NCBI GenBank assembly: GCA_009602725.1
Contig: WELB01000158.1
Location: forward strand, 201,534-239,572
Direction: 5' to 3'
From: Spirogloea muscicola
Lineage: Eukaryota > Streptophyta > Zygnematophyceae > Spirogloeales > Spirogloeaceae
DNA length: 38,039 nucleotides
Below the pieces are notes generated by a model. It saw only the letters and a list, made by a program, of their open reading frames with translations, was not told where the DNA came from and ran no database searches. This document shows, in pieces, positions 5,212 through 38,037 of the stretch. The number at the start of each line of letters is the position of its first letter. Position 1 is the first letter of the stretch. A program made the position numbers and the translations under genes.

Positions 5212-5510
5212 TGTCGCCTGGCCCTGCGTGTCGGGGACGGTGCCGCCGCGCGAAGCGCCTTCCCAGGGACCAGTGGCTCTGGCCAGGGGACATACTTCCA
5301 GGAGCATAGCCTCTCCGACCTGCGCCTGCTTAGCAGGGGTTACTGAGTGGTTAGTAGCTGCTTTGTTTTTTCTTGTGTGCTTGTCATTTCTGCTGCTTCG
5401 CCTTAGGGCTTCGCCTGGCTTCCCCCCCCCTCTTCTTGTACTCTGTTCATTCTTTTTTGGGCTGGCTGTTCCAGCCCATATTCTCAATGGGCGAGCCCTT
5501 CTTCTAGTGG
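5212..5510 (+). repeat. 5'-truncated retroelement end, SRGY subfamily
   Basis: The frame ending at 5345 reads HSLSDLRLLSRGY-stop and is followed by the tail block TTAGTAGCTGCTTTG, a C/T-rich stretch, TGTTCATTCTTTTTTGGG and the hairpin GGGCTGG-CTGTT-CCAGCCC (5459-5477), then CTCAATGGGCGAGC. The same order is present in inverse orientation at 37,700-38,037. Coding similarity to other copies fades upstream of about 5,210. Confidence 0.7.
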
Positions 5511-5542
5511 CCGCTTCAGTTCGCCGTGTGTGTACTTCACCG

Positions 5543-5930
5543 CTTTTTCGGTCGGCCTGGCGGCGAGCCAGCTGACTTCAACGCAGCTGGCTCGTGGGCT
5601 CAGGTATACCGGATGAGATTGTCAGTGTCCCTCCAGCGGTTCATGGCCCATGCTCTACATCTGCGTGCTGGCCGTGCTCTCGCTGCGGCCTCTGGCTTTC
5701 GGCAGGGGGATAATTTCCCGGCAGCTAGTCTGTCGGATCTGCGGCTCCTCACTCGTGACTACTGAGTGATCCATCCTCCCCCTGTGCTGACATGACATCT
5801 TCCGGCCCCTCTGTAGCTGCTGAACACTTGTCGGCCCCTCCGAACCCTTGTCAATTCTTTTTGGGCTGGCGTATCACAGCCCTTGCCCCCATTTGGAGTG
5901 CCACTTCTTCTTCTTTTTTCGGTCGGCCCG
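5543..5930 (+). pseudogene. Retroelement C-terminal coding remnant with tail (LTRDY copy)
   Basis: This is one of the best-preserved coding ends. The frame ending at the stop codon 5763-5765 reads ELADFNAAGS-like sequence (EPADFNAAGS here), AQVYRMRLSVSLQR, HLRAGRALAAASGFRQG and SLSDLRLLTRDY-stop. The same order occurs at 14,900-15,080 and 35,760-35,962, so it derives from one protein. I infer the C-terminal end of a non-LTR (LINE-type) polyprotein because copies share the 3' end and differ in 5' extent; no reverse transcriptase core lies in the window to prove it. A hairpin-type tail follows at 5863. Confidence 0.6.
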
Positions 5931-5934
5931 GCGG

Positions 5935-6160
5935 CTGCCTCCGGGTTTCGTCAGGGCGACGTCTTCCCGCCCTCTAGCTATTCTGACCTGCACTTGCTGA
6001 CTAGAGGTTACTGAGAGCCTGCTTGTCGTCTTAGCACTTAGTCCCCTGCTTTCTGCGCCATTCGGCTTCTCTTGACCTTGTCCATTCCTTTTGGGCTGGC
6101 TTCTCCCAGCCACCAGTCAATTCGGCCGCGCTTCTCCCTGGGCAAGGAGCGGAAGTATGC
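5935..6160 (+). repeat. Retroelement end, DVFPPSSYSDL variant
   Basis: A short coding remnant reads ASGFRQGDVFPPSSYSDLHL then LTRGY-stop, ending near 6014, followed by a tail containing TTGACCTTGTCCATTCC, TTTTGGGCTGGC and CCAGTCAATTCGGCC. The tail variant with CACCAGTCAAT recurs at about 13,975-14,035. The matching coding variant (GDTFPPSSYPDL) is at 36,985-37,055. Confidence 0.65.
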
Positions 6161-6179
6161 TGAACACCCGGTTGGTGAT

Positions 6180-6610
6180 GAGTTTGCGGCCCTGGCGATG
6201 GATGTCCATGGTGCTTTCGGCAGTCGCTGGCTGGATCTCCTTCAGCGGCTCGCCCGTCAGGCCATTGATCGGCCGGCCGGGGCTGCCAGGGGCGATGCCG
6301 GGCTTCAAACGCCGCCGGTTCGGTCGCCCGAGTCTTCCGCATGCGCCTGGCGGTATCGTTTCAACGTTCCCTGGCCCACGCTGTCCACACGCGCGCAGGC
6401 CGTGCTATGGCCTGCACTCGAACTAGTGGTTGAGTTGCTTGAGCGCCCACTTGCAGAAGAAGTGGCTCTCCCAATGGGGGCTTGCAGAAGCCTTGGCGAG
6501 TAGTATCCTACAGGCTCAGGTTCGGCTGCTTAGCAGGGGGATTTTGGGCTGGTTTTACCAGCCCCTATCCTCAATGGGCGAGCACTTTCTTCTTTTTAGC
6601 AGGGGTTACT
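6180..6610 (+). pseudogene. Frameshifted retroelement C-terminal remnant
   Basis: The frame beginning near 6180 reads FAALAMDVHGAFG and SRWLDLLQRLARQA, matching AEDVHGALG...WLDLLARLARRA at 14,838 and FPFAIDIHGAFG at 35,668. It then loses the frame, so this copy is dead. It ends in RLLSRG directly fused to a hairpin (GGGCTGG-TTTTA-CCAGCCC, near 6545) and a second SRGY stop at 6600-6612, which suggests nested or recombined copies. Confidence 0.6.
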
Positions 6611-6659
6611 GAGTGTTTGGTAGCTGCCTAGTTCCTTCTGTGCTAGCTTTCTAGCTTTC

Positions 6660-7110
6660 TAGCGCTTCCCTTTTCTCTGGGCTGGCCTCTCCTAGCCATC
6701 GCCCCCTCATGGAAGCTCTTCGAACCTTTGTCCATTCTTTCGGGCTGGCTTTTCACAGCCCTTGCCCCCATTGGGAGTGCCAATTCTTCTCTTCACAGCC
6801 CTTGCCTCCATCGGGAGAGCCACTTTCTTGGGGAGAGCCACTTCCCTTTCAGACCTTGTACATAACTTTTTCGGGCTGGCTTTTACACCCTCGCCACCTT
6901 CGAAGAGAAAGTGGCTCTCCCGAAGGACAGTGGCTCCCCTCTACATCCCTTTGGGCTGGCCTCTCACAGCCATTGCCTTACATTGAAAGGGCTATTTCCT
7001 TTCCTGGCCCCTTCGACTTTTGTTCATTCTTGTGCTGGGGTTGCCAATAACAGCCATCGCCCTCTACTGAGAGAGTCGTGCTTCCAGGGACGCGATTGCA
7101 TGTGAGGCCA
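6660..7110 (+). repeat. Tandem tail-only copies of the hairpin element
   Basis: Four successive hairpin tails occur near 6679, 6742, 6873 and 6953, each with GGGCTGGC, a short pyrimidine loop, CAGCC and a CCC-CATTGG- or CTCTACT-like flank. Several are preceded by GACCTTGT or CCTTTGTCCATTC. None is attached to the conserved coding peptide, so these are tail-only copies rather than full 3' ends. Confidence 0.65.
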
Positions 7111-7114
7111 GCCC

Positions 7115-7320
7115 AAATATTAGCCAAGTGTCAGTGCATAAGTCGGGAAGCTCTTCCGGAAGAAGCAGGTTCTCCGAACTGGGGCAGGACTGCTACATGC
7201 CTTGCTATGAATGGAAAATAAATGGAGAATAAATGGAGAATAAATGGAAAATATATGCTTCCAGTAGAGGGCGATGGCTGTGATTGGCCAGCCCAGATAA
7301 AGAATGCACATAATTTAAAG
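7115..7320 (-). repeat. Tail-only copy, minus strand, with an ATAAATGGA direct repeat
   Basis: Read on the minus strand, bases 7,300-7,255 give GCATTCTTTATCTGGGCTGG, CCAATCACAGCCATCGCC and CTCTACTGGAAGC. On the plus strand this is flanked at 7,205-7,255 by four near-identical units of about 12 bases (GGAGAATAAAT type). Confidence 0.6.
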
Positions 7321-8600
7321 GGGCCAGAAAGTAGTCAAAGCACACAGCGACTCAAGTGGCCACTGGGTGCTCAATGGCCCCCTGCCGGAGGCTGCGGCTG
7401 AGAAGGCCGAGACTGCGAAGGTCATTGTGCTGCAGAAAGTGAGTAATTGCTCGGACTCCCTGAGCCAGTGATTCTATACCGACATAAGTCCGCAACTGCT
7501 TGAGCCAAGCTTAGGTCCTGGAAGGTCAACTTAGACTTACGTCCTCGCCAGATGAGGCACTTCTACTGTGTGAAGTCGAGCATGCCTCTTCGAAGCAGGC
7601 ACGCCTTTCCCTAGCCTTTTCCAGGCAAGCTGGATACTGTGCAGGTGCACTTTCAGCTTGAGGGGGCCCGATGGTATCCGTTGGCCATACAGTACAGCAG
7701 GCCAATCAGATCTGCAGGAGCATCAGGGACATTACTTCGTGCGTGGTTGTGCCAGATTGCGGCAAATTGGTGCAGCCTGTATGCTCACAATGTATGCTCA
7801 CAATGTACTCATAGGAGTCTGGTGAAGAGTCGGCCCAAAGGGCTGAACTGAATACCTTGCCCCTTCAATGGCAGCCTTGAACTGTGACAGAACGAGCAAG
7901 TGCAGTGCCACTAGAGTTATGAGTCTCTGACTAAAACACCCGGCTGCAACTCACACATTTGGGTTGCATTGTCTGCAGTGTCATCTCAAGCAAAGCAAGT
8001 GCCTTGATGTGCAACGGGCTTCGTGGGCGAACAGCAAACGGGGGCACGGTAATTAGGAAGGAGCTGATGTGAAGTACGGCCTCAATACTGGCAACATCAT
8101 GACGTGCCAGGCACGTGTGTAGAAACAGAAGTCTGTAGATCTATTATTATAAATTTGACATAGGGCAAATCGGCTCTCTGCTCTTTGCCGTGAACCTAAA
8201 GGCTGCAATCTGCAGCCTGGTGGAGGTTCACTGAGGAGGTTGTGTGATGTGAGAGCCTGGGCAAGCCCTTTCTCACCAGCGGGCACGTGGGGAATTACTC
8301 ACATTTACAACGTTGACTGTAAGGCGAACCTTTGAGTAAGAATATCAAATTGACTACTGTTCCGCTTCACCATGTATCCCCACCGTCACAGGCGGGCCTT
8401 TATAGGTAAGCATCTCCGTGCAAGGAGGAGAAGAGCCACGCTGAAATGCTAGGCGTGCCAGTCATGATCTGCTCTCGGCTCTTTGTCCGTGAACCCGAGA
8501 TTCTTATGCTAGACAAGCTCGCAACCACACATGGTGGGGTCCTTTGAGGCTTCCTTGCTCTTCTGAAGGAGGCGTTGCCCAGTATATCCCAGCCGCAGAA
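7320..8600. other. Intergenic, no gene seen
   Basis: No ORF here has a domain, a convincing splice frame or a match to the window's repeat peptide. A short motif (CTCTGCTCTTTGCCGTGAACC) at about 8,174 recurs imperfectly near 8,473, hinting at an old local duplication. Confidence 0.4.
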
Positions 8601-8689
8601 ATGGACTAGCTTTAATGGGAAGCCCTAGTGGCGTGGCCCTTCCAAACGACTTGATAGGAAAATAGCTCTTTGTATGTAAGGCAATGGCT

Positions 8690-8860
8690 GTGCCCTTCAC
8701 ACAAAAGGGCTCGCCCATTGAGGAGAGGGGCTGGACAAGCCAGCCCTAAAAAGAATGAACAAAGTACGAGAATGGGGCCAGGGGAATCGCTAAGGAAAGC
8801 AAGCACAAAACGAAGCATCACAAACACTGCCCTTTTGAAGCAACCCCTGCGTTTCTAAGC
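8690..8860 (-). repeat. Retroelement SRGY-type tail, minus strand
   Basis: Reverse-complement reading gives the SRGY-subfamily tail: GTGCTTGCTTTCCTTAGCG, CCTGGCCCCATTCTCGTAC, TTTGTTCATTC, then the hairpin GGGCTGGCTTGTCCAGCCC (8,737-8,757 region) and CTCAATGGGCGAGCCC. The coding part is essentially lost. Confidence 0.65.
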
Positions 8861-9079
8861 TTCTAGTCTATTTGACAGATCTTTGCCTCGTCGCAGCACA
8901 CAGGTGATTCGTTGCCAACCTACATACGGCACACCTCAAGCTCATGATGGCACATGATCATCTCCAGCCACTGGGTGGAGGCAGCCTTCTTCCTTGCGGC
9001 TGCTCAATCTCAACAGGGGATATTGAGCGGCCCAGTGGCCAACTAGTCGCTGTGCGCTTAAGCTAGTGCTTCAGTCTGC

Positions 9080-9160
9080 TGGCCCCATCACATTTGTTCG
9101 TTCTTCTTTCTGGGCTGGTCAATCACAGCCACGCCCTCTACTGGAAGTCTTTCTTTCTTG
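9080..9160 (+). repeat. Tail-only hairpin copy
   Basis: TTGTTCGTTCTTCTTTCTGG, GCTGGTCAATCACAGCCACG and CCCTCTACTGGAAG match the tail variant at 7,255-7,300 (inverted) and 36,020-36,065. Confidence 0.6.
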
Positions 9161-9740
9161 ATGAGCTGTGCACAGTTTCTACGCTCCGGGCGTGGGGGCT
9201 CGGCGATACAGCTACGAGAGTTACGGCGGAATCAGCGGCCATCGACAAGTCGCCCGCTCACTTCCAGCTGGCAATGCCGCCAGCACTTCTTCCGAGAATG
9301 GACTGCTGCATCCGACAACGCGGCCGCATACTACGACATGCCGACATTCGGAATGTTGCAATGGGGGGTGAGAATCACGCCGCCGCCGCCCGGGAAGTCT
9401 TTGTTGCCGCGACGTCGAATACCTCATTGTCAGCTGGGATTCCAGCCGCCACGTAAGCAAAGCAACTTTGTTACAGCCCCTTCGCGAGCTCGACGTGCCC
9501 AGGTCGACATTTGCACTAATTAGATCTCGGTACAGCGCACGCCTACCGCGCGGAGCTGCGCATTCGCCCACGCGCTGGGCGTGCGAGTCCGTGGATCCGT
9601 GTGCCAGCCTGCCGCGCCACGGCATTCCTGACCTGCCGGTGGCCTTGACCGCAGGCTGTTGACCGAGGAAGCCACCCCGTACCTCCCCCGCCGCACAGCG
9701 CACCGGCTGCCCCCCATTGGGAAACTAGCTTCTTCACCAC
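9160..9740. other. GC-rich segment, unassigned
   Basis: Both strands are open over several hundred bases, but the predicted peptides have no recognisable family and I see no exon supported by splice signals. It could be interior sequence of the retroelement or a gene fragment. Confidence 0.3.
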
Positions 9741-9754
9741 CTTGTCACCACCTT

Positions 9755-10135
9755 TTCGGGCTGGCTTTTCACACTTCCAGGAGCCCAGCATCTCTGATCT
9801 GCGGCTGCTTAGCAGGGGTTACTGAGTGTCTCGTAGCAGCTTTGTTTCTGTTACTTAGCGCTTCCCCTGGCCCCCTTCTCGTACTCTGTTCATTCTTTTT
9901 CGGGCTGGTTGTTCCAGCCCCTATTCTCAATGGGCGAGCACTTTCTTCTTTTCACAGCCCTCCGCCCCTTATCCATCACTCAGTACATGTTCCATTCCCC
10001 CTTTTTTCAATTCTTGCGCCCCGCGCGCCTTCTCTCTTTGGCAGAGTGGTCACTGAGCGGGTCCATTGGCAGTGGGTGATGAACGTCATCTGATGTGTTG
10101 CTTTTGTATCTAGCCATTCTGGCCTTCGATTGTTT
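9755..10135 (+). repeat. Two stacked retroelement ends (SRGY tail plus GAGCGGGTC tail)
   Basis: The first unit has EPSISDLRLLSRGY-stop at about 9,780-9,823, the CCTTCTCGTACTCTGTTCATTC block and the hairpin GGGCTGG-TTGTT-CCAGCCC (9,902-9,920). The second, 10,025-10,120, carries GTCACTGAGCGGGTC and TGCTTTTGTATCTAGCCATT. The latter tail recurs at 15,490-15,580 and, in part, 37,455-37,490, defining a second tail subfamily. Confidence 0.65.
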
Positions 10136-10147
10136 GAAATGCAAGAA

Positions 10148-10305
10148 ATGGCAGAGCTCACTTCGTTTCCTTCACCGGCTGGCCAGCCGGCCAGGACTGC
10201 TGGGGCCATCTACTTAAACTACCCCACTGCCAGTCCCAAGCGCATTCCGCTCCTGCGCCCCCCACCTCCCGTCCCACCCGGCTCAAGCACCTCCGCGCCC
10301 CAGGT
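10148..10305 (+). CDS. Possible Pro-rich exon, unrecognised
   Basis: From an ATG at 10148 a Pro/Ser-rich frame runs to a strong donor (CCCCAG followed by GTACGTG, about 10,305). It reads AELTSFPSPAGQPA... LRPPPPVPPGSS. It lies just downstream of a retroelement tail and about 400 bases before the sequon-rich gene. There is no domain and no acceptor that clearly continues it, so it may be a 5' exon or chance. Confidence 0.2.
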
Positions 10306-10687
10306 ACGTGTGCCCACGCCCTCATGCAAGCGGCGTCGGCAGTCGACGTCCCGGTGCTTGATGCTCTGCTTTGATAGCAACCTCGCTAGTAAGGGGGAGT
10401 CATGATGCGCTTCGACTGGCGTTTGCTGTATGTCTTATGATCAACTTCCGCATACTTGGGCTGCTAGCTCGGCACACTTGGTGGCAGTGTGTGTTGTAAG
10501 CTGTCAAAGCATTGAGGAGATATGCAAGTATGCAAGTGAGGACCTTCAGTTAAAGGGTCTCAGATCCGCCTGCATCTGCAGAGGTCGCTCCAGAAGCAAT
10601 ACATGCATGTGTCGTAGCAGTCCGATCGTTCTTTGCCACTTCCCTTCTCAAGGGGCACAGTGAATGGCTTGCAGGCATTCTGCGAAG

Positions 10688-11552
10688 ATGGCAACTCGAG
10701 TGACCTGCCTGGCGCTCCTGGCCCTCCCGCTTGTATGTGTGATACTGCTCGGTGAGTGCTCGGTGGCTAGCAGGCCTGCACGGAGATCAGTCAATAGCAG
10801 AGTAGAGACACCTATGCATTGTGGCATAATGTCTACCAAAACTGCCATTGTTAGTGTGCATATGGCACCTTTGACAGGGGTCTTGTAAAAATCTCGGGTA
10901 GCTTGCTCTCTGAGGCCAAACTTTGGTCAGTGATGGGTAGGGTGCAACAGCAATGTATCGTACTTGCTTGATGATAGTATGGATGGGAGAGAAGCATTTG
11001 TGTCCTACCCAGTGCAGGTGGAATCAGCGCGGTAGATGCTGCAAAAGGTGGCAGCCATCATGGTGAGGCTCCAGACTCTAGCCACGCCGGACATGCACTG
11101 AACTGCGTCACCTGTTTTCTTTGCTTAGCAATATATCTACATCCTCCAGGAGAGGCAAATTGCAGCACTTGATCAAATGCTTACGTGTTCCTTGATGGCT
11201 TGGATGGCTATGATCAGGTGGAGGCAAGAGTATGCCTGGCATGCACCTCACTCCCCACAATGGCACACGCAATGGGACCAAGTTGAAAGGACCTGCTCAC
11301 AACGTGACCGCTGGACACCCGCACAACCATACTCTTCCACATGAGCACCCCAATCGACCCAAAAATCGCACACTCCCCTTGAAAGAACCTCATCACAATG
11401 TCACGGCTGGAGTCCACAAAAATCACACACTTCCACACAATCACACATTGGTATCTCCTAAAAACCACACACTCCCCTTCAATCACACTCATGGCAAGAA
11501 GACTGTGGAAGGAGTGCATCATGGAGGCAAGAAAGGAGGCAAGCGTGGTTAG
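10688..11552 (+). CDS. Secreted His-rich protein with ten N-glycosylation sequons (unrecognised family)
   Basis: Three exons, 10688-10751, 11018-11062 and 11218-11552, join with every intron in phase 1 and GT-AG borders (CTCG|GTGAGT, TGCAG|GT, CATG|GTGAGG, ATCAG|GT), giving 147 residues. Exon 1 is a classic signal peptide: MATRVTC followed by LALLALPLVCVILL. Exon 2 is a small Gly/His linker. Exon 3 is a hydrophilic, His-rich segment with repeated HNVTAG, NHTLP and KNRTLP units: ten N-X-T sequons and 19 histidines in about 106 residues, ending in a basic GGKKGGKRG tail. There is no Cys after the signal. It should be a densely glycosylated, possibly metal-binding extracellular or wall protein; I recognise no family. 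The phase agreement and signal peptide argue strongly that it is real. Confidence 0.7.
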
Positions 11553-12900
11553 GGCAGTGTATACCAAGCAACTGTCAACACCTCAACTCATAGCATATTG
11601 TTCCGTTTTTTGGTCGTGATGCATGTGTGCCCTATCTAGCTTCATGAACAATGTATCTCTATCATGTCTCCTACAAGGCACTTGTGTGCCACTGACAAAC
11701 TCGTTGGCACGAGAGCATTTTATATTATTTCCAGTCAGACTTTGAATTGACTCATGCACTTGTCAGATTCATGCACAAGAAAGAAAAGAAACTGAAAGTG
11801 ACTCATGCACTCGTCAGATTCATGCACAAGAAAGAAAACAAACAATTTCATACGAAAGCTTGCCGATATGTAGGATCCTGCATTGTGAGAGTTGTAAGTC
11901 TTGGCACCGAAGATTTTGCATCTTGGTTGTGCAGTTATCTAGGAAGGAAGGGTCTAAAGTAGCTTACATGGCAGGTAGACGGGGGGACTGTTTATTTGCA
12001 TGTTACATACTTGCTGTCTACGTGTTTGTACATTCTCTGAGAATTTGAACATTACTGACATGTAAACTAATTATGACAATCACTGACTACTTTTGCACGA
12101 ATTTAGTGACTGTCACTCCAGTGCAGTAGCCAACAGAAGACATGCTGTCGTTACGTATCTAGAATAACACATGTTGGAGTCCTCCGAGATAATTGACCAA
12201 CGAGTCTATCATCAAGGCAAGATCCATTTGTGCAGCAGTCCTGAAATTCACATAGAGGACGTTGTAAAGGCGTTCCCTATGGACACAGTCGGATGCTGAT
12301 GATGGGCACGCTTGACGCGCATGACAAGTTGAAAGGATCAGCCAATGCATCTGAAATCTGGGCTCAAAGAATTGCAAGAGCACATGTACACATGAATATA
12401 AATTCTGAAGACTACTTATACCCTATTAATCAACAGAACTCTTGCAGATGAAGACGAAGAGAACTTTCTCATTTGGCCGTTGCCATGCTCGACTAGCATC
12501 CACCACTTCGGCTTGCTTCATCAACTATTGTGTATTTACAACTATCTCCATGATCCTGTAAGACTACTGAGCATGGAGCTCGGACTTCCTCGTTTTTTGA
12601 AAAGTACCTATTGCAAGGACAGTGTCCTGACTCCTATGAGTCTTGTCCCTTGACAGTCCGATAGCCTCATACGGCAATGAGCCTGTCTATAGAAGTGGCT
12701 TAGAGCTTGATAGGTCCATCAATGCCATCAATGGGGACACGAGCTATTGCTGCATCTCAGCGTCCAAAAGCAGAGCATGCATGAAGTCGACAGTGTGCAT
12801 TTGAGCTGCTAGTGTTCTTAATATCTACAACGACCAGAATACTGGCTACTTCTTGACGTACTTGTCATGGTAACACTTATCAGCCTAGCAGCTGCCATAA
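11553..12900. other. Intergenic, A/T-richer, no gene seen
   Basis: Only short ORFs without domains are present. The sole structured feature is the tandem duplication at 11,748-11,845. The first part should include the 3' UTR of the sequon-rich gene. Confidence 0.45.
11748..11845 (+). repeat. Two-unit tandem repeat, 51-bp period
   Basis: TGACTCATGCACTTGTCAG... at 11,748 repeats at 11,799 as TGACTCATGCACTCGTCAG..., with both units ending in CATGCACAAGAAAGAAAA. Over about 45 bases the units differ at only a few positions. Each contains TGACTCA, an AP-1/bZIP-like core, which may be coincidental. Confidence 0.8.
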
Positions 12901-13577
12901 GATCAGCTTAGGAGCGTCTCAGCACAGGAGCCTGCCAAGTCCAGCTCGAGGATCGAAGTTAAGGCTATTGGCTTAATATAGGCATTAGCATGCATGCAGA
13001 CTTCGCCAACAGAAAGCTGTGCAACAGTAGTCTCTGTGGACGGGCTGCAGGTGCGCAGATGGCAGTGCAGGAAAAAGCGCATGGTGGCCGACCCACGAAA
13101 GGCAACAATACAGGAGGAGTCTTGGGAAGATACTGGCACAGAAGAGAGAGCTGCCAACCGAGAAACTCTGTAAGCGAGCACATATACGCAAGTTGCCCCA
13201 AGCTCCCGCGTCATGCACATGCACTGCAGAGGCGCCATGCTGCTGATAAGCTATGATAATGCAATAAACTCACAAAATTAATCTGCCGAGCCTGCCCAAC
13301 CACAACCCACATTTGCTTGCCCCGCATCAAGTGTCGTACCTATCAAGCTTATCTTAGAGTTGCCCTTCTGGCTTCTCCATATTCGTTTTCCCTTACTTAG
13401 AGTGAGCGGCCCGTTTGCAGATGCCCTTATCGACCCTGCAAGTCTATTGTTGCTGCGGATTCTTGCAACCACACGGCTTTGAGCAGAAAAGCAGGAGCCC
13501 TGTGATAGTGCAGAAGGGAGTCCAGCAGGGACCAGCTGCTTACACGATGAGTCCAAACAAGACACGGCACTTTTACA
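12900..13577. other. Intergenic, no gene recognised
   Basis: Minus-strand ORFs at 12,903-13,238 and 13,278-13,565 are open for about 100 codons each but show no domain, signal or clear exon boundary. Confidence 0.35.
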
Positions 13578-13598
13578 GGGTTTAGGGTTTAGGGTTTA
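13578..13598 (+). repeat. Interstitial telomere-like repeat (TTTAGGG)n
   Basis: Three consecutive GGGTTTA units occur between unrelated sequences. This is the second such micro-array in the window (the first is in the GT61-like intron). Confidence 0.8.
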
Positions 13599-13904
13599 AG
13601 CACGCCTTCCACGCTTGCCTCGTTATGCCAGTAACACTTGATCTTGCAAACTGTCATGTGGAGACTCATTTGACGTCGTTCGGCAGGCTTCTGCTGCCAA
13701 ATATGATATCGATACACTTTTTACTAAGTGGCATTGAGCAGTTGCCTTCTGGACGGAGAATACCTATGCCGCTCTGCCAAGGGGTGAAGGGAGATGGGGT
13801 GCGGGAAAGGGTTAATGAGGAAGGGGGCAGACATGTTCTGGGGCTATGAGTCGGCCCGGAAGTGGTGCAGGCGTCACCTACATCAATGCGCATCACACCT
13901 CTAT

Positions 13905-14060
13905 CCTTAGAGGTTACTGAGCGTCCCCTGGATGATGTCTTCGTCCTAGTCCTCCGCACTCCGGCTCCTTCAGACCTTGTCCATTCCTTTGGGCTGGCCT
14001 TTCCCAGCCACCAGTCAATCTGGCCGAGCTTTCTCTTATCCTTCTGGGAGTGCTCATTTG
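13905..14060 (+). repeat. Retroelement tail, CACCAGTCAAT variant
   Basis: It starts with the end of a coding copy (TTAGAGGTTACTGAGCG, equivalent to RGY-stop), then CAGACCTTGTCCATTCC, TTTGGGCTGGCC, a weak hairpin and CACCAGTCAATCTGGCCGAG. It matches 6,070-6,135. Confidence 0.65.
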
Positions 14061-14499
14061 ACCGGCCAATAATAAGGGTGTGCAGTCTCTCAGATTGCAG
14101 GATTCAAGCTTTGTACTCGGTAGAAACACTGCTACATCTGTGTCCATTACAGAGCGATGTCAGACTGACTTGTCCCTAAACATTATTTGTTCGAAGGTCG
14201 CATGCTAGCCCTGCTGCCATCGCTTTCTCAAAGGCCAGTTGTTGGAATTGCCAGCCTATTGCAAGGTGCTCCAGGCAAGCGGATGTCATGCATGCCTATG
14301 CCTCAGCCTGGTTGAGGTCTGAGTAGTTCCAAAAATCTACATGTCACACCGTTGCAATTGTATACGACATGTTTACAGGCAGGATCATCTTGTCCCACTT
14401 GGCAACAGTCAAGCAGAGCTGGTACACTGTTCAGGTGACGAAGCTTCACGACTCGATTCCCTAGGTTCCGAAGGGCTAAGGATCACGAAGAGCGAGAGC

Positions 14500-14690
14500 A
14501 CGGCTGGAGGAGATCTTCTTAACCCACAAATGAGCACATAACAAGTCGGACATGCTAATTTGGGCAGCCGGAGCACCACCGTGGAAGATGTCTGCCAGAC
14601 TTATGGCGCGGCCAGCACGCTGATGAAAGGCTGGGGCCTGCGATCGCTGCAGGCTCAGCGAGTAGCACTCTGCAGCATGCAATCAATGCC
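14500..14690 (-). pseudogene. Decayed retroelement coding end, AQANG subfamily, minus strand
   Basis: The minus-strand frame reads SLSLQRSQAPAFHQRAGRA, matching SLSLQRSQALAIHQRAGRA at 15,200-15,245. Beyond that point it diverges (ISLADIFHGGAP in place of LAQANGFRGGGLAP). It is inverted relative to neighbouring copies. Confidence 0.6.
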
Positions 14691-14759
14691 TGCAGCGCGT
14701 CGCAAGAAAGGGAAGAGAAGAAGGTACTACTAAGGCGGCAATGGCTCTTTAAGCACTGG

Positions 14760-15135: not shown

Positions 15136-15179
15136 CCTGTTTTGCGCATTGCGCTTCTGGCCCCGTCGTAGTCTGGCCG

Positions 15180-15480
15180 CTTCGCTATCATTGAGTCTGC
15201 AGCGCTCCCAAGCACTCGCGATTCACCAGCGTGCTGGTCGTGCATTAGCTCAGGCTAATGGCTTCCGTGGTGGTGGTTTGGCTCCTCAGTATAGCTTGTC
15301 AGATATGCATGTGCTCACTCGGGATATTAGTGTCCTCCCTTAGCCAGCTCATTACCCAGTTACCAGGACATTTGTATGGCTAGAATTGGCCTCCCTTTCG
15401 ATTTCATGCGCACCGCGCGCCTTCTCTCTTCGCCCGTTGTCACGTCTCATCGGGCTGGCTTCCCACAGCCCTTGCGCCTT
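15180..15480 (+). repeat. Retroelement 3' end, AQANG subfamily, copy 2
   Basis: It encodes SLSLQRSQALAIHQRAGRA, LAQANGFRGGGLAPQYSLSD and MHVLTRDISVLP-stop (15,343), then the same noncoding tail as 253-470. A GGGCTGGCTTCCCACAGCCC hairpin lies near 15,452. Confidence 0.75.
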
Positions 15481-15484
15481 TGTG

Positions 15485-15600
15485 TTTTGACCCGTGGTTA
15501 TTGAGCGGGTCAATCTGCTGTAGGTTATGTAGATTTTTAGATGTGCTTGCCTTTGTACCTGGCCATTTGGCCTACATTTCTTTCTAATACACGATCTTTT
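15485..15600 (+). repeat. Retroelement tail (GAGCGGGTC/TGTGCTTGCC type) abutting the esterase gene
   Basis: GACCCGTGGTTATTGAGCGG, then TGTGCTTGCCTTTGTACCTG and GCCATTTGGCCTACATTTC, match 10,055-10,120 and 37,455-37,490. It ends about 40 bases upstream of the proposed PC-esterase start codon, so it must overlap that gene's promoter or 5' UTR. Confidence 0.65.
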
Positions 15601-15639
15601 TCCTTGCGCCCATTGGAAGCGCCACTGTCATGTTTCCCA

Positions 15640-26560: not shown

Positions 26561-27802
<1,242 letters not shown>

Positions 27803-30655: not shown

Positions 30656-31177
30656 ACCAGGCTGTGGCTGGAGTGCAGCGCACACACCACAGCACTACAC
30701 ATAGCAGTAGAAATTGCTCTTTGAGCTGTCAATACAAAGCCTCAGGGGTGGTTAGTAGGCTCACTACCCTGGGGCTCCACTCAGCATCAATCTTTGCCTT
30801 GTCACATTTCTTGAGATCCACAGCTTAGCGCCTGCACTCTGGCGGCGAGGCCGCCAAAGCCGTGCTACGGGCTGTCAGCTTTGAAGAGCATTGCAGCATG
30901 GGCAGCTTCGAAGTTGGGCAACGCCTTGTGCTACTGCACTTACAAGCTCGAATGTGGGTCGTTACTGAACTCATTTTCGGCAGGTTGGAGTGATAATTTG
31001 GTGGGCGGTCCAGTGCTGTTTCACTGGCCGCCACATTGAGCTGTACGTCTTTGTGTCTTGCAGGTGCACTACTCTTCGCAGACCCACCGACAAACTTCGT
31101 ATCAAGAGAGAAGCTGCCAGCCACCTGATGATCCTAGAGCTAGCTCAATGAGTGACCAGATGCGGCGCCAGGGGCCA
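30656..31177. other. Convergent intergenic region
   Basis: It lies between the 3' ends of the kinase (+) and the SUVH-like gene (-) and should hold both 3' UTRs. I see no gene. Confidence 0.5.
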
Positions 31178-33679
31178 CTAGAGGAGGCGCTTGCGGCAGC
31201 CGGGAGCACCACAAAGGCACAAGATGCGCTTGACACTGCCATCCTCATTGCGCACTGTTCCGACAGCATAGTTGTAGTCATACGTGAGCTCAACCAGCGG
31301 CGGAACGTGCTCCATGGCAAAGAGACAGACGTGCGGCGCGCGCACGTCGTGGTGGTCGAATAGTACGCACTGCACAAATAGGTTGGGAGCGCAGCTGTGG
31401 TTGAAGTAGCGTGCGACATTGCCCGTCTTGGCAGCGTCCAGGCAAAAGTGCACGTCCCGCATCAGCCGCTCTGAGGAGACCGCCGACCTCTCACCACCAC
31501 CCTTGTCCACCAACAGCTTGCCGTCCCCAAGGTCCCCATGAAGGAGGCCATCGCCTGCACTCCACCGCTCGGTCACAGTCTTGGAGCAGTCGAGGTCGAA
31601 CAGGTAGTCGTCGCGCCCGAGGAGGCACTCAGCGTCAGCGTCCTCCAGAAAGCAACCCGTGTACTCGCAGAGGAAGTCGCCAGCTGCGAGCGCATCCCAT
31701 GAGCGCGCCCCCCACCCTTTGCCGCTCGCCGTGCGGAACACCTCCAGGCGGCGTGTCAGCCCGCGCTGAGCTACGCGGTTGTGGCAGGTCGGCGGGCATG
31801 CGCAAGCGGGCCCGCACTCGTACACCAGCGCCTTGGCCTCCACCAGGCTGCCGTTGCGGTTGTAAGGAAATGTGCCGCCGTTGCGCGCAGCACATGCGCA
31901 TGCGTCTGGGTCCACGCAGCCGCGGGGGCCGCCGCAGCTGCATCCTACTGCTGGCGCCAGAGTCGCAGCGATGGCTGCCGGATACGAGACCCTCGAGAGG
32001 TACTCGAACACTGGAGGCACGCTCGGCGGTCTCCCTCCTGCGGCAGCCGTGTCATCTACGACGCAGATGGGCACCACCTCACGGCCGCCTGAGAGGTCGA
32101 CGAGGAGCAAGCCGGGGCGGTCAGAAGCGACCAAGTCCCGACTCAGGGATGTCCCGAAGGCGTAGCTGGCTTTCATGGGCCCTGGCGCAATCAGTGCCTG
32201 GCCAGGCATGCGCGCCAGTCGGAAGCGATACACGTCGTGGCCACTCGCGCCAGGTGTAGCACGCCACTCCTCGACGAGGTACAGGCCGTCATACGTGTAC
32301 ACGGAGCCGCTGTACGAGTTCAATTCAGGTGCCTGTTGGAGAGCGGAGTTTCAGTTTAAATAACCAGGTCAAAGATGGATGAGAATGTTACTAGGATGCT
32401 CACCTGGCCTGTGGAGAAGCACGCATTGGAGTAGATTCAAGGACGATGAAAAAGATGCAAGCAAGTCATGCAATCCCAAGCTTAGCATACACTGAGAGAA
32501 CTTATGTCTGCCTATGTGGAGGATGCTTGTCAATACCCGGCGGACCACACGCACAGGGAGGGCTAGCGCTGCAGAACCAATGAGCGCAGCATTGCCACGT
32601 ATGGAGTGCGTGCCAGAATCCCTGCCATGCACAGAATACCAAAACTCTTCGCCACCATCCAAGTTGTCTTCGTAACCGCCTGAGAGCACAATGCAGGTCG
32701 CGACGTGCCGGCCCCAGGGGCTGCGCTTGCCGCCGATGCAGTCGACGCCCGCCTGCGGGTGCCGGTGCATGCCCACCATCATCATCTCCTGGCGGCTGTA
32801 GAATGCATGCCCCACCCGCATGCCTGTGGTCAGCCACCACAGGCCACACAATGCCATCAGCTTGACCCCTACAATTGAAGACATGGGCCCCCAAGACCAC
32901 AAATTCTAGTCCTAGAATGGACACTCCAGCTTGCGCAGAAGCTGAGTGGTGGAGCGGCAGGCATTATGACGGCGGCCGCGCCACAGACGGCTCACCAGGG
33001 ATGTGGCCAATTGCAGGCTGGGGGTTGAAGATTAGGCCGCGCTCGCGCATGGCCTTGCCAGCCTTGAAGTCGGCGCGGCGCGACCCGCGGCCCTCCTCGC
33101 ACACACGTGCCTCCTCCTCCTGTCGCCACGCCAATGAACGACGGCTTTGCAATTGGCTTGCAGAATCAAAAGACCGAGCGGCATCAGCAGTGGCTTTAGG
33201 GGTAGTATTTAGGGTCCATAGCCTGCAATGACCTGGGTTCTTCGTCACAACCCGAGAAGCATGCGGTCCGAATGTCAGAGATGGGGTCACGCCTCACGGC
33301 TCTCAAGCTGCTCGCTTGAGCGGCGCTTCCTGTACAGGATGTCGATCTCACGGGCGCTGTCAGTGAGTGCACCTGTAGTGCGCGGCGCCGGAGATGATTG
33401 AAGAGGCGTATCGTGCAGTGGGCGCGCAGCACCGCGGCGCTCTCCTCCTCCGACGCCTCGCCGCTGACGCCGCCGTCGCTGCAGCCGCCAGAGGCGACGG
33501 CCGCCTCCTCAGCTGCAATCGCAGCCGAGGCGGTCGCTGCTGCGAAACCGGCGGCATCGTGTGGCTCTAGCAGGCGCTCTAGACTCTCCTCAAGCTCCTC
33601 ATCATCATCCTCGTCACTGGGCCCGGCGACGGCGTTGCCACTTGGTGGCCGCGCCAGCAGCGGTAGCGTATGCCGCCGA

Positions 33680-33712
<33 letters not shown>

Positions 33713-34521
33713 TGCAGCAGCAGTTTGACAGTCTTCCTCGCTTGCAGGGGCTGGCGGAACTCTGAGGGCGGGCCCCGCCGCAGAGCTGGCGGGCCGGCCG
33801 TCTCCAGAGACTGCCGGCGCTTGAGGAGCCTCCCTCCCTCCTCTCTGCGCTCCGTGACTGCCAGCGCTGCTGCCGTTGCTGCATCCAGGTCCTCGAGAAG
33901 CGCCAACGACGTGTCTGCCAGCCGCTTCTGCAACGGCACGCTCCTCGCCACCGCCATCGCTGCCGTCGCTGCAGCCGGCAGCTGCCGGGCTCTGTTCCGG
34001 CGGGCCAGTGCTCGGCGCTGCAAGAGGCTCTGTGCGCTGCTCGCCGCAGCCGAGCCCCAGATCCCTGCCTGACCAGGCGGCGGCAATGAAGGTGGCAGCT
34101 CTCCAGTGCCATCATCTCGGCACGTCAGCGTGCCCGCCGCCGCTCCGCACCGCTCCGCTGTCTTCGCCACTGCTGCCGCTGCCTCCATCGATACCATCGG
34201 GTCACCATCGCCGCCGCTACCACTGGCCGGCCTCTGAGGCTCTGACCACCCGCTGGCGCCGCCGCCGTTTCCACCGCAGCTGCCCTGGCAGCCATCGTTT
34301 GGCGCGGCCGCTCTGGCTGCCAGAACGCCGGCGGCGGCGTCACCGCCCGCACGTGGGAGGACTGCTGCGGTGAACTCCATGAGGAGCTGCAGCGTCCTTG
34401 CCAGCGGCCCCAGCAGCGGCTTGGCCGGCAGGGGACAAGCTGCTGCCGTTGTGGCGGCGCTGCCGTCCTGCTCCGGCAGGGCAACCTCTGGGGCTGGAGC
34501 CGCGCTCGACGCCACCGGATC
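31178..34521 (-). CDS. SUVH-like histone H3K9 methyltransferase (SRA + pre-SET + SET + post-SET)
   Basis: Exons, minus order: 34521-33373, 33119-32996, 32823-32537, 32332-31178, all phase-consistent (904 residues from 34521; a short first exon, possibly with ATG at 34767, is missing). Exon 1 is Ala/Ser/Pro-rich low complexity. Exons 2-3 hold an SRA (YDG) domain: ADFKAGKAMRERGLIF, HIPG, RVGHAFYSRQEMMMVGMHRH, ATCIVLSGGYED, GNAALIGSAALALPVRVVRR, then GSVYTYDGLYLVEEW in exon 4. Exon 4 adds the Cys-rich pre-SET (GCSCGGPRGCVDPDACAC, YECGPACACPPTCHNRV), the SET core (GDFLCEYTG, NVARYFNHSCAPNLF, VELTYDYNY) and post-SET CLCGAPGCRKRLL. This architecture is that of plant SUVH proteins, which bind methylated DNA through SRA and place H3K9 methylation to silence transposons. 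All zinc-binding Cys motifs and NHSC are intact, so it should be active. Confidence 0.9.
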
Positions 34522-35110
34522 CTGTCAGAGCCACAACGCCAGGCGCCGGCTGACGGCCGAGCAGCGCAGACCCACAGTCACCAGCACCTGGCAAGCTCCT
34601 AGAGAGCACGAGGGCTGGAGGAGAGAGAGAGGGGCTCAGAGGTTGAGCACCGTGATCCAAGGCCTGTCAAGGCCCTCGTCTTGCGCCGTGCTCGTGGTCG
34701 TGTACCTAGCCTCTTGGCTGCTCTCGACAACTTCTTTGCAGCTTCTGCTGTCAGGCGCGGCCGCCATGGCTCCCTCTAAGACTGCAGTGAGACCGTCAAA
34801 GGCTTGTCAATGACAGAGACAGCCAGCATCTGAGACACTGCATGCGTACAAGAGGAGAGAGGAGGAGTGTGAAAGGCAGCCCCAGACTAATTGGACAAGA
34901 TCCAAAAAAGGGCCGAAAGGTGCTAATACGCCACAGCTATGCAAGTGGCTACAGCTGATAGGACTTGGTAACCCCGAAGCGAGGAAAGAGGAGAGATGAA
35001 GATAGGGGGAAGAGTGTTGGAAGGAAGGAGAAGAAGGTGGGGGGAGGATGGGGAGGCGAGGTAAGCGCCGGGGTGGTAAGTAGAGCAGGACATGAAGAGA
35101 AAGGGAGCGG
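34522..35110. promoter_or_regulatory. 5' flank of the SUVH-like gene
   Basis: A minus-strand ATG at 34767-34765 opens MAAAPDSRSCKEVVESSQEA followed by a GT donor. It would be a plausible first exon, but its phase (2) does not fit the 34521 acceptor as I read it. Sequence further upstream is purine-rich. No promoter motif is identified. Confidence 0.35.
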
Positions 35111-35124
35111 GGGAGAGAGAGAGA

Positions 35125-35174
<50 letters not shown>

Positions 35175-35178
35175 GCGA
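35111..35178 (+). repeat. (GA)n/(GAGC)n microsatellite
   Basis: Mostly GA dinucleotides with an internal (GC)n interruption at 35,126-35,134 and a trailing GAGC/GAGCGA run. ORFs through it (RERERERE or SLSLSLS) are artefacts. Confidence 0.9.
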
Positions 35179-35339
35179 GGGAGTGAGGACGAGTCGAGGT
35201 CGAGCACCCGCAGGTGGGAGAGAGAGGGAGTGGACGAGGCCGCCGGCACCGGAGGCCGAGCTGGGGTACTTCGCTGGTCGGGCTTAGGGCAGTGTTAGGA
35301 TCAGCCAGGAGGCGGGCTTCCGGCGGGCAAGCGGCGCTC

Positions 35340-36000
35340 TTGGTTTCGTGACTTTGGCGCCTTTCCGGCCCTTTCAGGCCTCGTTCATTTCTCTGGGAGC
35401 GAGCTCTCTGTCAATGGCCTGGCCATCCAACAGCCCCCGCCCCTCCAAAAGAAGAACGAAAAGCGCTCACTTATGTGGGATGAGCGCTTCTCGGCCCCTT
35501 CGGACCTCGTCACTACATGCGGACGTGGTGACGACAGACGCGTTCGATCGAGCCAACGCCACTGTCTTTGCATCCAGGGCATGCAGTAGGCCAGTGCCGC
35601 AAGAGGCATGGAGGCTAAGTATGCAGATCATCAAGAAGAAGACATCAGCCGCAGTACATATTCTTCCCCTTTGCCATCGACATCCACGGGGCGTTCGGTG
35701 CTCGGTGGCTCGAGCTCCTGCAGTAGAGTCGCGTGCAACGCAGTTTCCCGACGTTCTTAAGATGAGCAGGCGACTTTTAACGTGGCAGGCTCTCGCCCAG
35801 GTGTATCGCATACACCTGTCAGTATCGCTGCAGCGGTCTATGGCACGCGCGTCGCATCTGCGTGCAGGTTGCGCCTTGGCTGCAGCCTCTGCCTGTAGCC
35901 AGGGGACCCACCACCCAGAGACTAGTTTCTCTGACCTGCGGCTGCTCAACAGGGGCTATTGAGCACCCGGTGGCCACTGAAGTCGCTGTGTGCTTCAACG
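35340..36000 (+). pseudogene. Retroelement C-terminal remnant, LNRGY copy
   Basis: From about 35,655 the frame reads IFFPFAIDIHGAFG, ARWLELLQ then a stop. In a shifted frame it continues QALAQVYRIHLSVSLQR, SMARASHLRAGCALAAAS, TSFSDLRLLNRGY-stop (35,962). The internal stop and frame change show decay. Upstream, 35,345-35,420 has tail-like CCTTTCAGGCCTCGTTCATT. The order FPFA-DIHGAFG, RMxLSVSLQR, RAGRALAAAS, SLSDLRLL-RGY is the consensus of the family. Confidence 0.65.
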
Positions 36001-36240
36001 CTTTTCTGGCCCCATAGAACTTTGTCTACTCTTCTGGGCTGGCCATCACAACCATCGCCCTCTACTAATCGAGTATTTCTTCTACTCATTGGGGCTGGCC
36101 TTTTACAGCCTGGCACAGACCTTGTATACTCGTGCTGGTCGTGGCCTAGCTGCTGCCTCAGGCTATAGGCGGCTCCTTTCCGGCTGCTACTTTTCGACTT
36201 GCGGCTGCTGATTAGGCGTGACGGAGCAGGCATCTTCTGT
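36000..36240 (+). repeat. Hairpin tails and a decayed RAGRGLAAASG copy
   Basis: Two tails (GGGCTGGCCATCACAACCATCG at about 36,035; GGGGCTGGCCTTTTACAGCC at 36,090) flank a coding scrap LYTRAGRGLAAASGYRR (36,122-36,172). The scrap ends near TGCGGCTGCTGATTAGGCGTG, a mutated RLLxRG-stop. Confidence 0.6.
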
Positions 36241-36287
36241 GGTCTCTAAGCTTTTGACTTCTTCTGACTTTGTTGGTTTTTGTTGTT

Positions 36288-36358
36288 TGGCTTTTCACAG
36301 CCCTCGCCCCCTCTGGAAGACAAGTGCTTCCAGAGGGGGCGAGGGCTGTGAAAAGCCA
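36288..36358. repeat. Perfect 32-bp inverted repeat with 7-nt spacer (head-to-head tails)
   Basis: Arms 36288-36319 and 36327-36358 are exact reverse complements; spacer 36320-36326 is ACAAGTG. Each arm is the body of the tail element (GGCTTTTCACAGCCCTCGCC then CCCTCTGGAAG). Outside the perfect arms the flanks remain related (TTTGTTGGTTTT versus GACAAGGTCCAAAGG inverted). RNA from either strand would form a 32-bp hairpin. Confidence 0.9.
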
Positions 36359-36412
36359 GCCTAGAAAATATCGACAAGGTCCAAAGGGCCGAAAGGTGCT
36401 ATATCCACACAA

Positions 36413-36745
36413 TTATGTGAAGTACAGCAAATGGAAGCTTAGCAACCCCGAGTCAGCAGCCGCAAGCCGGAGTAAAGTGCAGCTGGCAAGAGACACCCCA
36501 GCTATGCTCAGAAGTAGCAGCCAAAGCACGGCCGGCCCCTGCAAGTGCACAGTTTCCCTGTCACAACCATCGGCATACTTCTTCCGGTCGAGAAATATCA
36601 CAGCCGTCAAGTGGGTCAGTATGGGCCATGCAACCCCCGTTACCAAGATGACGCTGACCCAGGCCATCAGCTGACAAGTCAGCACGACGAGGGCGGGAGA
36701 ATACAAGTGGCCCGCGCAACTGACAGTACATGTAAGCTTTAACAA
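36413..36745 (-). CDS. Possible membrane protein exon, unrecognised
   Basis: A minus-strand frame of about 100 codons, probably starting after an acceptor (TACTGTCAG, about 36,722), reads LVVLTCQLMAWVSVILVTGV, AWPILTHLTAVIF, LDRKKYADGCDRET, PAVLWLLLLSIAGVSLASC and ends LLSFHLLYFT-stop. It has two or three clear hydrophobic spans separated by a charged loop, unlike the chance ORFs around it. It lies between retroelement ends, so it may be the last exon of a host gene or part of a mobile element. No family is recognised. Confidence 0.35.
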   Translation of the reverse strand: MLKLTCTVSCAGHLYSPALVVLTCQLMAWVSVILVTGVAWPILTHLTAVIFLDRKKYADGCDRETVHLQGPAVLWLLLLSIAGVSLASCTLLRLAAADSGLLSFHLLYFT

Positions 36746-36939
36746 GCCTCATGAAGTTGGGAATATTGCAATGTAGCACTGCAGGGCAGGTGAGCGTCAT
36801 ATTCTATATTACGGTGTCTGATGTTACTGAGGAGTTGAGACATTTACAAGCCTACTTCCTCACACGGCTTCGCTTGCATCGCACCTTGCCAGCATGGTCG
36901 TTAGCTTGTGGCCGTGCAGTTCCAAGGGTTCACAGACAG

Positions 36940-37520
36940 GCTTGACCTCGTGATCACGAGTCAACATGCAACTCTTGCCAGGTTTCGCTTGCTATGCAGG
37001 GTGACACTTTTCCGCCCTCTAGTTATCCTGATCTGTTCTTGCTGACGAGAAGAGAAGACGCTCCCAGGACAGGGCGGTGGCTGTGAGAGGCCAGCCCATT
37101 GGTAAAACAACCTAATTTGAAGGGGCCATGGAAAGCTCTAGAGCAGGAAGAAAGCTCTAAAGAGCCCAGCGAGTCGAGTTGCCACGAGAGGTCAGAGAGC
37201 GGTCATTCGCTTAAGTCATAGAAGGAAGACGCTTCCAGTCATAGAGGGTAGTCTCAGATTTGTTGCGCCTTCTGGCCCTTTCGATCCTTGTTCAATTTTT
37301 TTCTGGGCTGGCCAATCACAGCCATCGCAGCCATTGTCCATTCTTTTTGGGCTGGCTTTGCCAGCCCCTCCTCTTCGTCTTCTTCTTCTCTACGGCTCCT
37401 CACTCGTAATTACCGAGTGATCCATCCTCCCCCTCGCATCCTCAGGCCCCTTTGTGCTTGCCTTTGTACTTGGCCACACATGGCCTCCCCATCTCTTAAT
37501 ATACACGCATTTTCTTCGTA
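36940..37520. repeat. Retroelement ends, mixed orientation
   Basis: 36,960-37,050 (+): GDTFPPSSYPDLFLLTRR coding end. 37,070-37,125 (-): tail GGGCTGGCCTCTCACAGCC. 37,285-37,370 (+): two tails in tandem, the second with a symmetric hairpin GGGCTGGC-TTT-GCCAGCCC. 37,385-37,430 (+): RLLTRNY end and CGAGTGATCCATCCTCCCCC, as at 5,745-5,785. 37,455-37,490: TGTGCTTGCCTTTGTACTTG tail. Confidence 0.6.
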
Positions 37521-37534
37521 GCTGCTCAACGCTC

Positions 37535-37690
37535 TTAGGCCCCTTCGAACCTTTGTCAATTCTTTTGGGCTGGCTTTTCGCAGCCCTTGCCCCCATTGGG
37601 AGTACCACTTCTTCTGTGGGCGAGCCCTTTCTTCGCCCTTCACGGAAGAGTCTTTCTTCTACTTTGGGCTGGCCTCTCATAGAAAGAAAG
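37535..37690 (+). repeat. Tail-only hairpin copies
   Basis: CCTTTGTCAATTCTTTTGGG, CTGGCTTTTCGCAGCCCTTG and CCCCCATTGGGAGTACCAC (37,550-37,606) match 6,725-6,782 and 5,850-5,905. A second partial copy begins near 37,661. Confidence 0.65.
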
Positions 37691-38037
37691 AGCGCGCCCA
37701 TAGAGAAAGAAGAAAGTGCTCGCCCATTGAGAATAGGGGCTGGAACAACCAGCCCGAAAAAGAATGAACATAGAGAAAGAAAGGGCTCGCCCATCGAGGA
37801 TAGGGGCTGGACAAGCCAGCCCAAAAAAGAATGAACAAAGAACGAGAAGGGGGCCAGAGGAAGCCAGAGGAAGCGCTAAGAAACCAAAGCACACAAAGAA
37901 AGAAAGCAGCTACAAATTACTCAGTAACCCCTGCTAAGCAGCCGCAAATCAGAGAGGCTAGGGTCCTGGAAGTGGGTCCCCTGGACAGAGCCAGAGGCAG
38001 CAGCGAGGGCTCTCCCGGCACGAAGGTGCAGCGCACG
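37690..38037 (-). pseudogene. Retroelement end, SRGY subfamily, minus strand (runs off the window)
   Basis: The minus-strand frame from 38037 to the stop at 37923-37921 has 38 uninterrupted codons: RALHLRAGRALAAAS, GSVQGTHFQDP, SLSDLRLLSRGY. It is followed by the SRGY tail (GTAGCTGCTTTC, CCCCCTTCTCGTTC, TTTGTTCATTC) and two consecutive hairpins, GGGCTGGCTTGTCCAGCCC (about 37,803-37,823) and GGGCTGGTTGTTCCAGCCC (about 37,737-37,758), each with CTCxATGGGCGAGC after it. It is the most intact 3' end in the window, and the element may be longer outside it. Confidence 0.7.

Follow-up and report, generated by a model that had tools for sequence, protein, structure and literature searches.

The 38,039-nt window analysed here (contig WELB01000158.1 of Spirogloea muscicola, positions 201,534 to 239,572, forward strand) carries many 3' ends of long interspersed nuclear elements (LINEs), in which the end of an open reading frame (ORF) is followed by a short hairpin with GGGCTGG and CCAGCCC arms. 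This hairpin is real and lies far above chance: the pattern GGGCTG-N3..9-CAGCC has 32 strand-wise matches in the window, versus 0.67 expected and at most five in 100 shuffles. The pattern is palindromic, so these matches correspond to 20 distinct places, and the figure of about 30 repeats given by the initial annotation is fair when decayed and truncated tails are added. Across the genome (153,112,186 bases in 471 contigs), GGGCTGG-N3..8-CAGCCC has 12,931 + 12,801 strand-wise matches, versus 6 + 7 for the reversed pattern; a 7-bp hairpin is counted once on each strand, so there are fewer genomic places than matches.

We collected tails from 57 genome segments (234,201 non-N bases) and accepted 215 of them on their flanks with no condition on the stem; since candidates first passed a k-mer filter spanning the whole consensus, intact stems are mildly favoured in this set. 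The tails fall into the families A1, A2 (with three loops), A3, B1, B2, C, D and E, and every family has a downstream block of its own. The hairpins singled out by the initial annotation lie within a few bases of where it placed them, with loop CTGTT at 5459, TTTTA at 6546 (claimed at 6545), TTGTT at 9902 and 37737-37755(-), CTTGT at 37804-37822(-) and 8728-8746(-), and GGGCTGGC-TTT-GCCAGCCC at 37349-37367. Variants that it had described as shifted pairing exist as sequences but are not mere shifts: they represent the separate families B (GGGCTGG-CTTTTCA/G-CAGCCC), C, D and E. It was wrong in placing TTGTTCATTCTTTT in every well-preserved tail; this string is typical of A1 and A2 and present in D and E copies, its place being taken by TTGTCAATTC in family B and mostly by TTGTCCATTC in A3 and C. 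Genome-wide, exact family A flanks with the stem left open retrieve 2,436 tails (1,229 + 1,207; reversed control 0), an intact family A stem with the ATGGGCGAGC flank retrieves 4,804 (2,403 + 2,401), and exact family B flanks retrieve 247 (117 + 130).

For 102 tails we recognised an upstream ORF end. Among the copies listed (up to six per family), the stop codon precedes the tail by about 49-104 nt if the ORF end matches the tail's own family; the stop is farther away when the ORF end belongs to another copy. Measured from a landmark in the 3' untranslated region (UTR), the hairpin lies where it is expected in 36 of 41 family A, 24 of 33 family B and 11 of 14 family C cases; for family B one further case is cut by N and a nearer landmark gives 42 of 49, and several exceptions appear by eye to be interrupted by other inserts. 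The insertion point follows the hairpin by about 30 nt. Inspection by eye of the sequences following ATGGGCGAGC shows that one base plus CTTTCTTC opens 30 of 52 distinct family A strings, and ACTTCTTC likewise opens 13 of the 22 family B strings that follow GGGAGTGCC; beyond these ends the sequence is mostly unique. The 3' end is nearly constant, being the pyrimidine end CTTTCTTC or close to it, and no poly(A) is visible at the tail ends of any family seen.

The 5' ends, by contrast with this shared 3' end, vary down to a few nucleotides before the hairpin. Of 148 tails, 32 have no more than 50 nt of homology upstream of the hairpin and four have more than 1.6 kb, as measured against the other sampled copies only and on tails collected via CAGCC, which biases them to intact hairpins. 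A 56-nt insert in the window (6540-6595) starts 6 nt before its hairpin, within the ORF end of another copy; it is flanked by the 10-bp target repeats TTAGCAGGGG (6530-6539 and 6596-6605), and the uninterrupted TTAGCAGGGG site is found at 5330-5339 and 9809-9818. An uninterrupted homologue together with a readable junction was available for 30 of 119 tested tails. The target repeats of these resolved insertions, some of which are probably not simple ones, measure 1-3 bp in 11 cases, 4-9 bp in 11, and 18 and 24 bp in one each. Flanking repeats of at least 9 nt within 150 nt occur in 30 of the 148 tails, versus 14.4 expected from mismatched flanks.

The ORFs upstream of the tails end alike (...SDLRLL-x-RxY, stop). 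A first look across the genome with the 55-amino-acid ORF end at 5590-5766 gave 17,258 candidates, and all 150 of those scored matched. The reverse transcriptase (RT) domain RVT_1 is detected with an E value of 3.2e-17 in one copy (L070) and of 1.5e-6 in another (L071), the latter slightly short of the curated cut-off. Among the sequences of solved structures (PDB), the L070 piece is closest to R2 (E 3.9e-4; LINE-1, 0.82), and the L071 piece has no match up to E 1. Downstream of the RT stands C-x-C-x12-H-x3-C and then RVDLV...ADVVTTD; residues C21, C23, H36, C40, D91, D106 and K136 are invariant in seven copies, of which the other six are 44-94% identical to L071. By motif, this C-terminal region reads as a restriction-like endonuclease (RLE), and the tail, to judge from the RT sequence, belongs to a non-long-terminal-repeat (non-LTR) retrotransposon with an R2-like RT. 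Seemingly intact open frames of 1,400-4,800 amino acids ending in the C-terminal match were set aside: those examined are assembly gaps read as X.

A common 3' end, variable 5' truncation and hairpin-only inserts indicate the 3' tail of a target-primed retroelement, and with the ORF end, the RT domain and the target repeats the assignment of the hairpin to a retroelement 3' tail, proposed by the initial annotation, is borne out. In L2-type LINEs, the enzyme encoded by the element is known to read a hairpin in the 3' tail. We propose, with a probability of roughly 0.64, that the hairpin described here is the 3'-terminal recognition element of related non-LTR retrotransposons with an RT and, by motif, an RLE-type region, and that it probably marks the start of copying, as in similar elements elsewhere. 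By analogy with R2 and the stringent-type LINEs, the element's own protein would bind the hairpin in the RNA; the bound protein would nick the target and begin to copy the RNA at its pyrimidine end, in target-primed reverse transcription, and early fall-off would leave hairpin-only copies. The shortest inserts retain a tail of about 56 nt. The features of the window are collected in Table 1.

Table 1. LINE tails, hairpins and ORF ends along the window.
Positions	Strand	Feature	Remark
408..421	+	Family F hairpin GGCTA-GAAT-TGGCC	Preceded by TTGTA
5446..5505	+	Family A2 tail	Hairpin 5459-5477 (loop CTGTT), then ATGGGCGAGC and pyrimidine end
5590..5766	+	LINE ORF C-terminal end (...SLSDLRLLTRDY, stop)	Followed by family B tail
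5863..5882	+	Family B tail hairpin	
6093..6111	+	Family C tail hairpin	
6540..6595	+	Family A hairpin-only insert, 56 nt	Within another LINE copy; hairpin 6546-6564
6742..6761	+	Family B tail hairpin	
6953..6971	+	Family E tail hairpin	
7276..7294	-	Family D tail hairpin	
8728..8746	-	Family A2 tail hairpin	Loop CTTGT
9112..9130	+	Family D tail hairpin	
9902..9920	+	Family A1 tail hairpin	Loop TTGTT; downstream of ORF end ...SISDLRLLSRGY
13991..14009	+	Family C tail hairpin	
15378..15391	+	Family F hairpin	Downstream of ORF end ...SLSDMHVLTRDISVLP; own best fold differs
15452..15471	+	Family B-like hairpin	Family assigned by eye
15561..15572	+	Family G hairpin GGCC-ATTT-GGCC	Downstream of ORF end ...VLTRGY
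35348..35962	+	ORF remnant ending ...SFSDLRLLNRGY	Followed by family D-like tail (~36036-36070)
36092..36110	+	Hairpin GGGCTGGCCTTTTACAGCC	
36289..36357	.	Two facing tails	Perfect 31-nt inverted arms, 7-nt spacer
37079..37097	-	Tail hairpin	Loop CCTCTCA
37305..37323	+	Family D-like hairpin	Family assigned by eye
37349..37367	+	Family A3 tail hairpin	8-bp stem, loop TTT
37472..37485	+	Family G hairpin GGCCA-CACA-TGGCC	
37567..37586	+	Family B tail hairpin	
37737..37755	-	Family A1 tail hairpin	Loop TTGTT
37804..37822	-	Family A2 tail hairpin	Loop CTTGT; tandem, just upstream of the A1 tail at 37737..37755

Within the ORF remnant at 35348..35962, tblastn matches the C-terminal region of the element protein to 35375-35959 with 33% identity. 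The perfect identity of the two facing tails would be explained more readily by a fold-back or template switch than by separate insertions of each. Elsewhere in the window, short internal telomere-like repeats are found at 2629-2641 (TTTAGGTTTAGGG) and 13581-13594 (TTTAGGGTTTAGGG). By eye, frames on both strands between 24300 and 30655 resemble split plant-type receptor-like kinases, with an assembly gap at about 26.9-27.7 kb in their midst, and a 381-amino-acid frame at 31178-32323 (-) resembles a SET-domain histone methyltransferase of the SUVH kind. To the eye, these frames and the TTTAGGG repeats point to a green alga or plant as host.

Several results weigh against reading the hairpin as a recognition element. 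Six of the 30 resolved insertions have no target repeat, and the C-terminal region of the protein has no family match in Pfam. The others concern the pairing, which the initial annotation regarded as kept while loops change. In family A genome-wide, with decay counts anchored by ATGGGCGAGC, pair 3 is changed from G to A in 22 copies, from C to T in 22 and on both sides in none, beside 4,804 intact; pair 4 is doubly changed in none and pair 2 in one. A matched flank G in the same GGGC context is changed in 23 copies, like the stem sites, and another family A flank G decays faster (64 copies). Since pair-3 changes that break the pair and those that keep a wobble are equally frequent and double changes are absent, selection for stem pairing is not shown within families: the stem is near-invariant rather than covarying. 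Individual family A copies exhibit no covarying pairs and equal decay, the outcomes that the initial annotation had named as speaking against its proposal. In the sample, a G-C to A-U double change is found in 2 of 83 family A tails (pairs 1 and 3). Over the 215 tails, change rates are 0.055 and 0.057 in the arms, 0.105 in the loop, 0.104 in the left flank and 0.068 in the right, a contrast that is unclean because flanks were required to match and loops include subfamily differences.

Alignments of the sampled tails also count against covariation within families. The first, with 54 rows (at most eight per family of the 215 tails, C1 segments left out), contains two two-sided cells and has a covariation score of 0.058, versus 0.041 shuffled (4 of 500 as high), and controls slid by +1 to +3 reach 0.096-0.154. 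Dropping two misaligned rows and one with a longer loop (L046:1744-1808, L071:3621-3679, L034:1086-1151) leaves 51 rows with one two-sided cell and a score of 0.032, versus 0.027 shuffled (84 of 500 reach it; slid controls, 0.018-0.131). For these 51 rows RNAalifold with default weights finds no consensus hairpin and returns it only under a lowered covariation weight or ribosum scoring; in the best fold of each row on its own, the arm pairs downstream in 34. Among eight typed family tails, the minimum-energy fold contains the hairpin in five (A1, A3, B1, B2 and C) and is another pairing in A2a, D and E.

We do not claim pairing selection from the excess of wobble-keeping over breaking transitions in sampled family A tails (24 to 4), because the right flank of family A favours C to T over G to A in the same way (18 of 473 C sites, 5 of 415 G sites) and the pair-3 counts are equal genome-wide. 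As a counterpoint, the pooled families have 34 wobble-keeping versus 15 breaking changes with an unbiased right flank (41 of 1,372 and 36 of 1,130); without family A the counts are 10 to 11. Nor do we claim an outer helix between the ATTC block before the hairpin and AATGGG/ATTGGG after it, as drawn in the A1 and A3 folds: with the inner stem forced, the entire tail folds no more stably than with shuffled right flanks (P 0.19-0.87, nine consensus tails), the left-right duplex energies alone being mildly low (P 0.006-0.38). A visually convincing conserved stem with a variable loop can thus be near-invariant sequence without covariation.

We also compared the families with one another. Among single representatives of A, A3, B, C, D and E, the arms are identical over 7 and 5 nt (shuffled 0.69 and 0.64), with ORF ends at a mean amino-acid identity of 62% and third positions at 42% (shuffled 27%). 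Identity among the same representatives is 58% in the loops (shuffled 46%), 69% in the left flank (61%), 62% in the right flank (52%) and 60% in the rest of the 3' UTR (54%). As A-E were found via GGGCTGG and an A3 representative with a changed arm was replaced, the arm identity is largely ascertainment and carries little weight for our proposal.

Families F and G, collected by their flanks, stand outside this ascertainment. F is 47% identical to B over the C-terminal 247 amino acids (copy L058) and G 44% (copy L014); in resolved copies their flank anchors start 20-39 nt past the stop. Six flank matches were obtained for F, one of which is not a proper F tail; of the other five, three read GGCTA-GAnT-TGGCC, a fourth contains an additional base and in the fifth a pair is broken. 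Of ten matches for G, GGCC...GGCC is intact in eight, a pair is broken in another and the last has diverged too far; the G loops are ATTT, ATACT (or GGCCA-TAC-TGGCC) and CACA (GGCCA-CACA-TGGCC). MAFFT gave no consistent alignment of F and G with A-E, and the comparison was made by hand. Set against GGCTG...CAGCC, the fourth core pair is U-A in A-E, U-G in F and C-G in G, and the fifth is G-C in A-E and A-U in F and some G; in the ATTT form of G a fifth pair would leave a two-base loop and cannot form. G tails are stabler than shuffles (z -2.1 to -2.4, a second small hairpin included); the F hairpin does not exceed its shuffles in stability (z about 0.2), with one of three copies adopting a different fold, a further point on the negative side. 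On this hand alignment, the stem changes of F and G, two or three in number, resemble compensation and are suggestive. The claim of covariation fails within families; between distant families, which are few and hand-aligned, pairing is mostly preserved as the stem changes, and this favours the idea. In the window, F and G hairpins are preceded by TTTGTA (402-422, 15372-15392, 15553-15573 and 37464-37486), and G tails extend to about AATACACGA.

The within-family results suit an explanation in which the hairpin is merely sequence inherited from a few recent masters, a palindrome without function: family A decays neutrally, stem and matched flank sites alike, and compensation occurs in one copy at most. 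Against this explanation, the A-E stem core persists despite the divergence of the ORF ends and third positions (in representatives chosen with intact arms), and the position of the hairpin is likewise occupied by one with a different stem in F and G; we regard it as unlikely. The place of the hairpin, directly before the pyrimidine 3' end in all families seen and with no poly(A) visible, would also suit a role in 3'-end formation, stability or export of the element RNA instead of protein recognition; nothing specifically favours such a processing role, hairpin-only copies are compatible with either reading, and it seems to us decidedly improbable.

Slightly less probable still is that the tails act as pyrimidine targets for further insertions, so that arrays build up with the hairpin as a passenger. 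Adjacent tails with no N between them form 157 pairs (92 tandem, 33 tail-to-tail, 32 head-to-head), and those at most 100 nt apart comprise 30 tandem, 14 tail-to-tail and a single head-to-head pair. By eye, in tandem family A tails the next copy often starts at the old CTTTCTTC end, which gives the tails the look of insertion targets. The orientation ratio is biased, however, because element bodies keep head-to-head copies apart, and the loci were collected around tails; the resolved targets have no common sequence by eye, and targeting of pyrimidine ends would explain the arrays but not the hairpin. We accordingly retain the recognition element as the preferred explanation. If recognition is the function, the constant stem and varying loop of A-E suggest that the stem rather than the loop is read. 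Extended to a radiation of RLE-type LINEs (at least A-G) within one genome, this would mean that the protein reads the stem of a minimal terminal hairpin and not its loop, with a core 5'-GGC-Y-R...Y-R-GCC-3' switched by compensation between distant families and loops of 3-7 nt that drift freely. We offer this extension tentatively and consider it doubtful; if true, stem reading would reverse the arrangement of the L2 elements, where the loop is read.

Rfam has no match at gathering scores, and the bacterial/archaeal and viral contig collections searched yielded no relative. Searches of an open literature library turned up no title or abstract opening that describes this hairpin tail; subscription papers lie largely outside that coverage, so that novelty is not proven.

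Among known systems, R2-type elements are the closest to this element's RT in the comparison with solved-structure sequences, and by motif they would also have in common with it, behind the RT, a CCHC-like motif and PD-(D/E)xK-like residues. R2 RNA is recognised via structure in its 3' UTR, and proteins of the R2 clade have N-terminal zinc-finger/Myb DNA-binding domains. Unlike R2, the elements described here are present in thousands of dispersed copies, including inserts in other LINE copies, and are not confined to 28S ribosomal DNA; their pyrimidine 3' end is nearly constant, and their structured tail is much shorter than that of R2.

The stringent-type elements of the L2 clade, eel UnaL2 and zebrafish ZfL2-1 and ZfL2-2, have one small stem-loop near the 3' end, and in the zebrafish L2 elements specificity comes from the loop, stems being exchangeable (PMC4176376). 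The tails in S. muscicola resemble these in having the stem-loop close to the 3' end and differ in that the stem is constant and the loop variable across families A-E. The L2-type endonuclease domain precedes the RT (PMC4176376), unlike the apparent RLE-type region after the RT here. In plant L1-clade tails shared with short interspersed nuclear elements, the stem varies with compensation, the loop UCU is conserved and the ends are mostly poly(A) (PMC3747384). These share with our tails a 3' tail of about 50 nt with a putative hairpin; CGAG is also conserved in them directly 3' of the stem (PMC3747384), and GGGCGAGC occurs in family A tails, which we note as a lead only.

The RLE-type protein, by motif, would also be a likeness to HERO, NeSL, Utopia and other RLE clades; many HERO elements have no site specificity, and the word hairpin is absent from the main text of that source (PMC4640811). 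Taken together, our best reading is that the tail carries a known kind of LINE 3' recognition hairpin, distinguished by its unusually constant stem and variable loop. As a compact R2-like example with thousands of natural copies, it would offer a simple substrate on which to test stem against loop reading and to trace the origin of such recognition.

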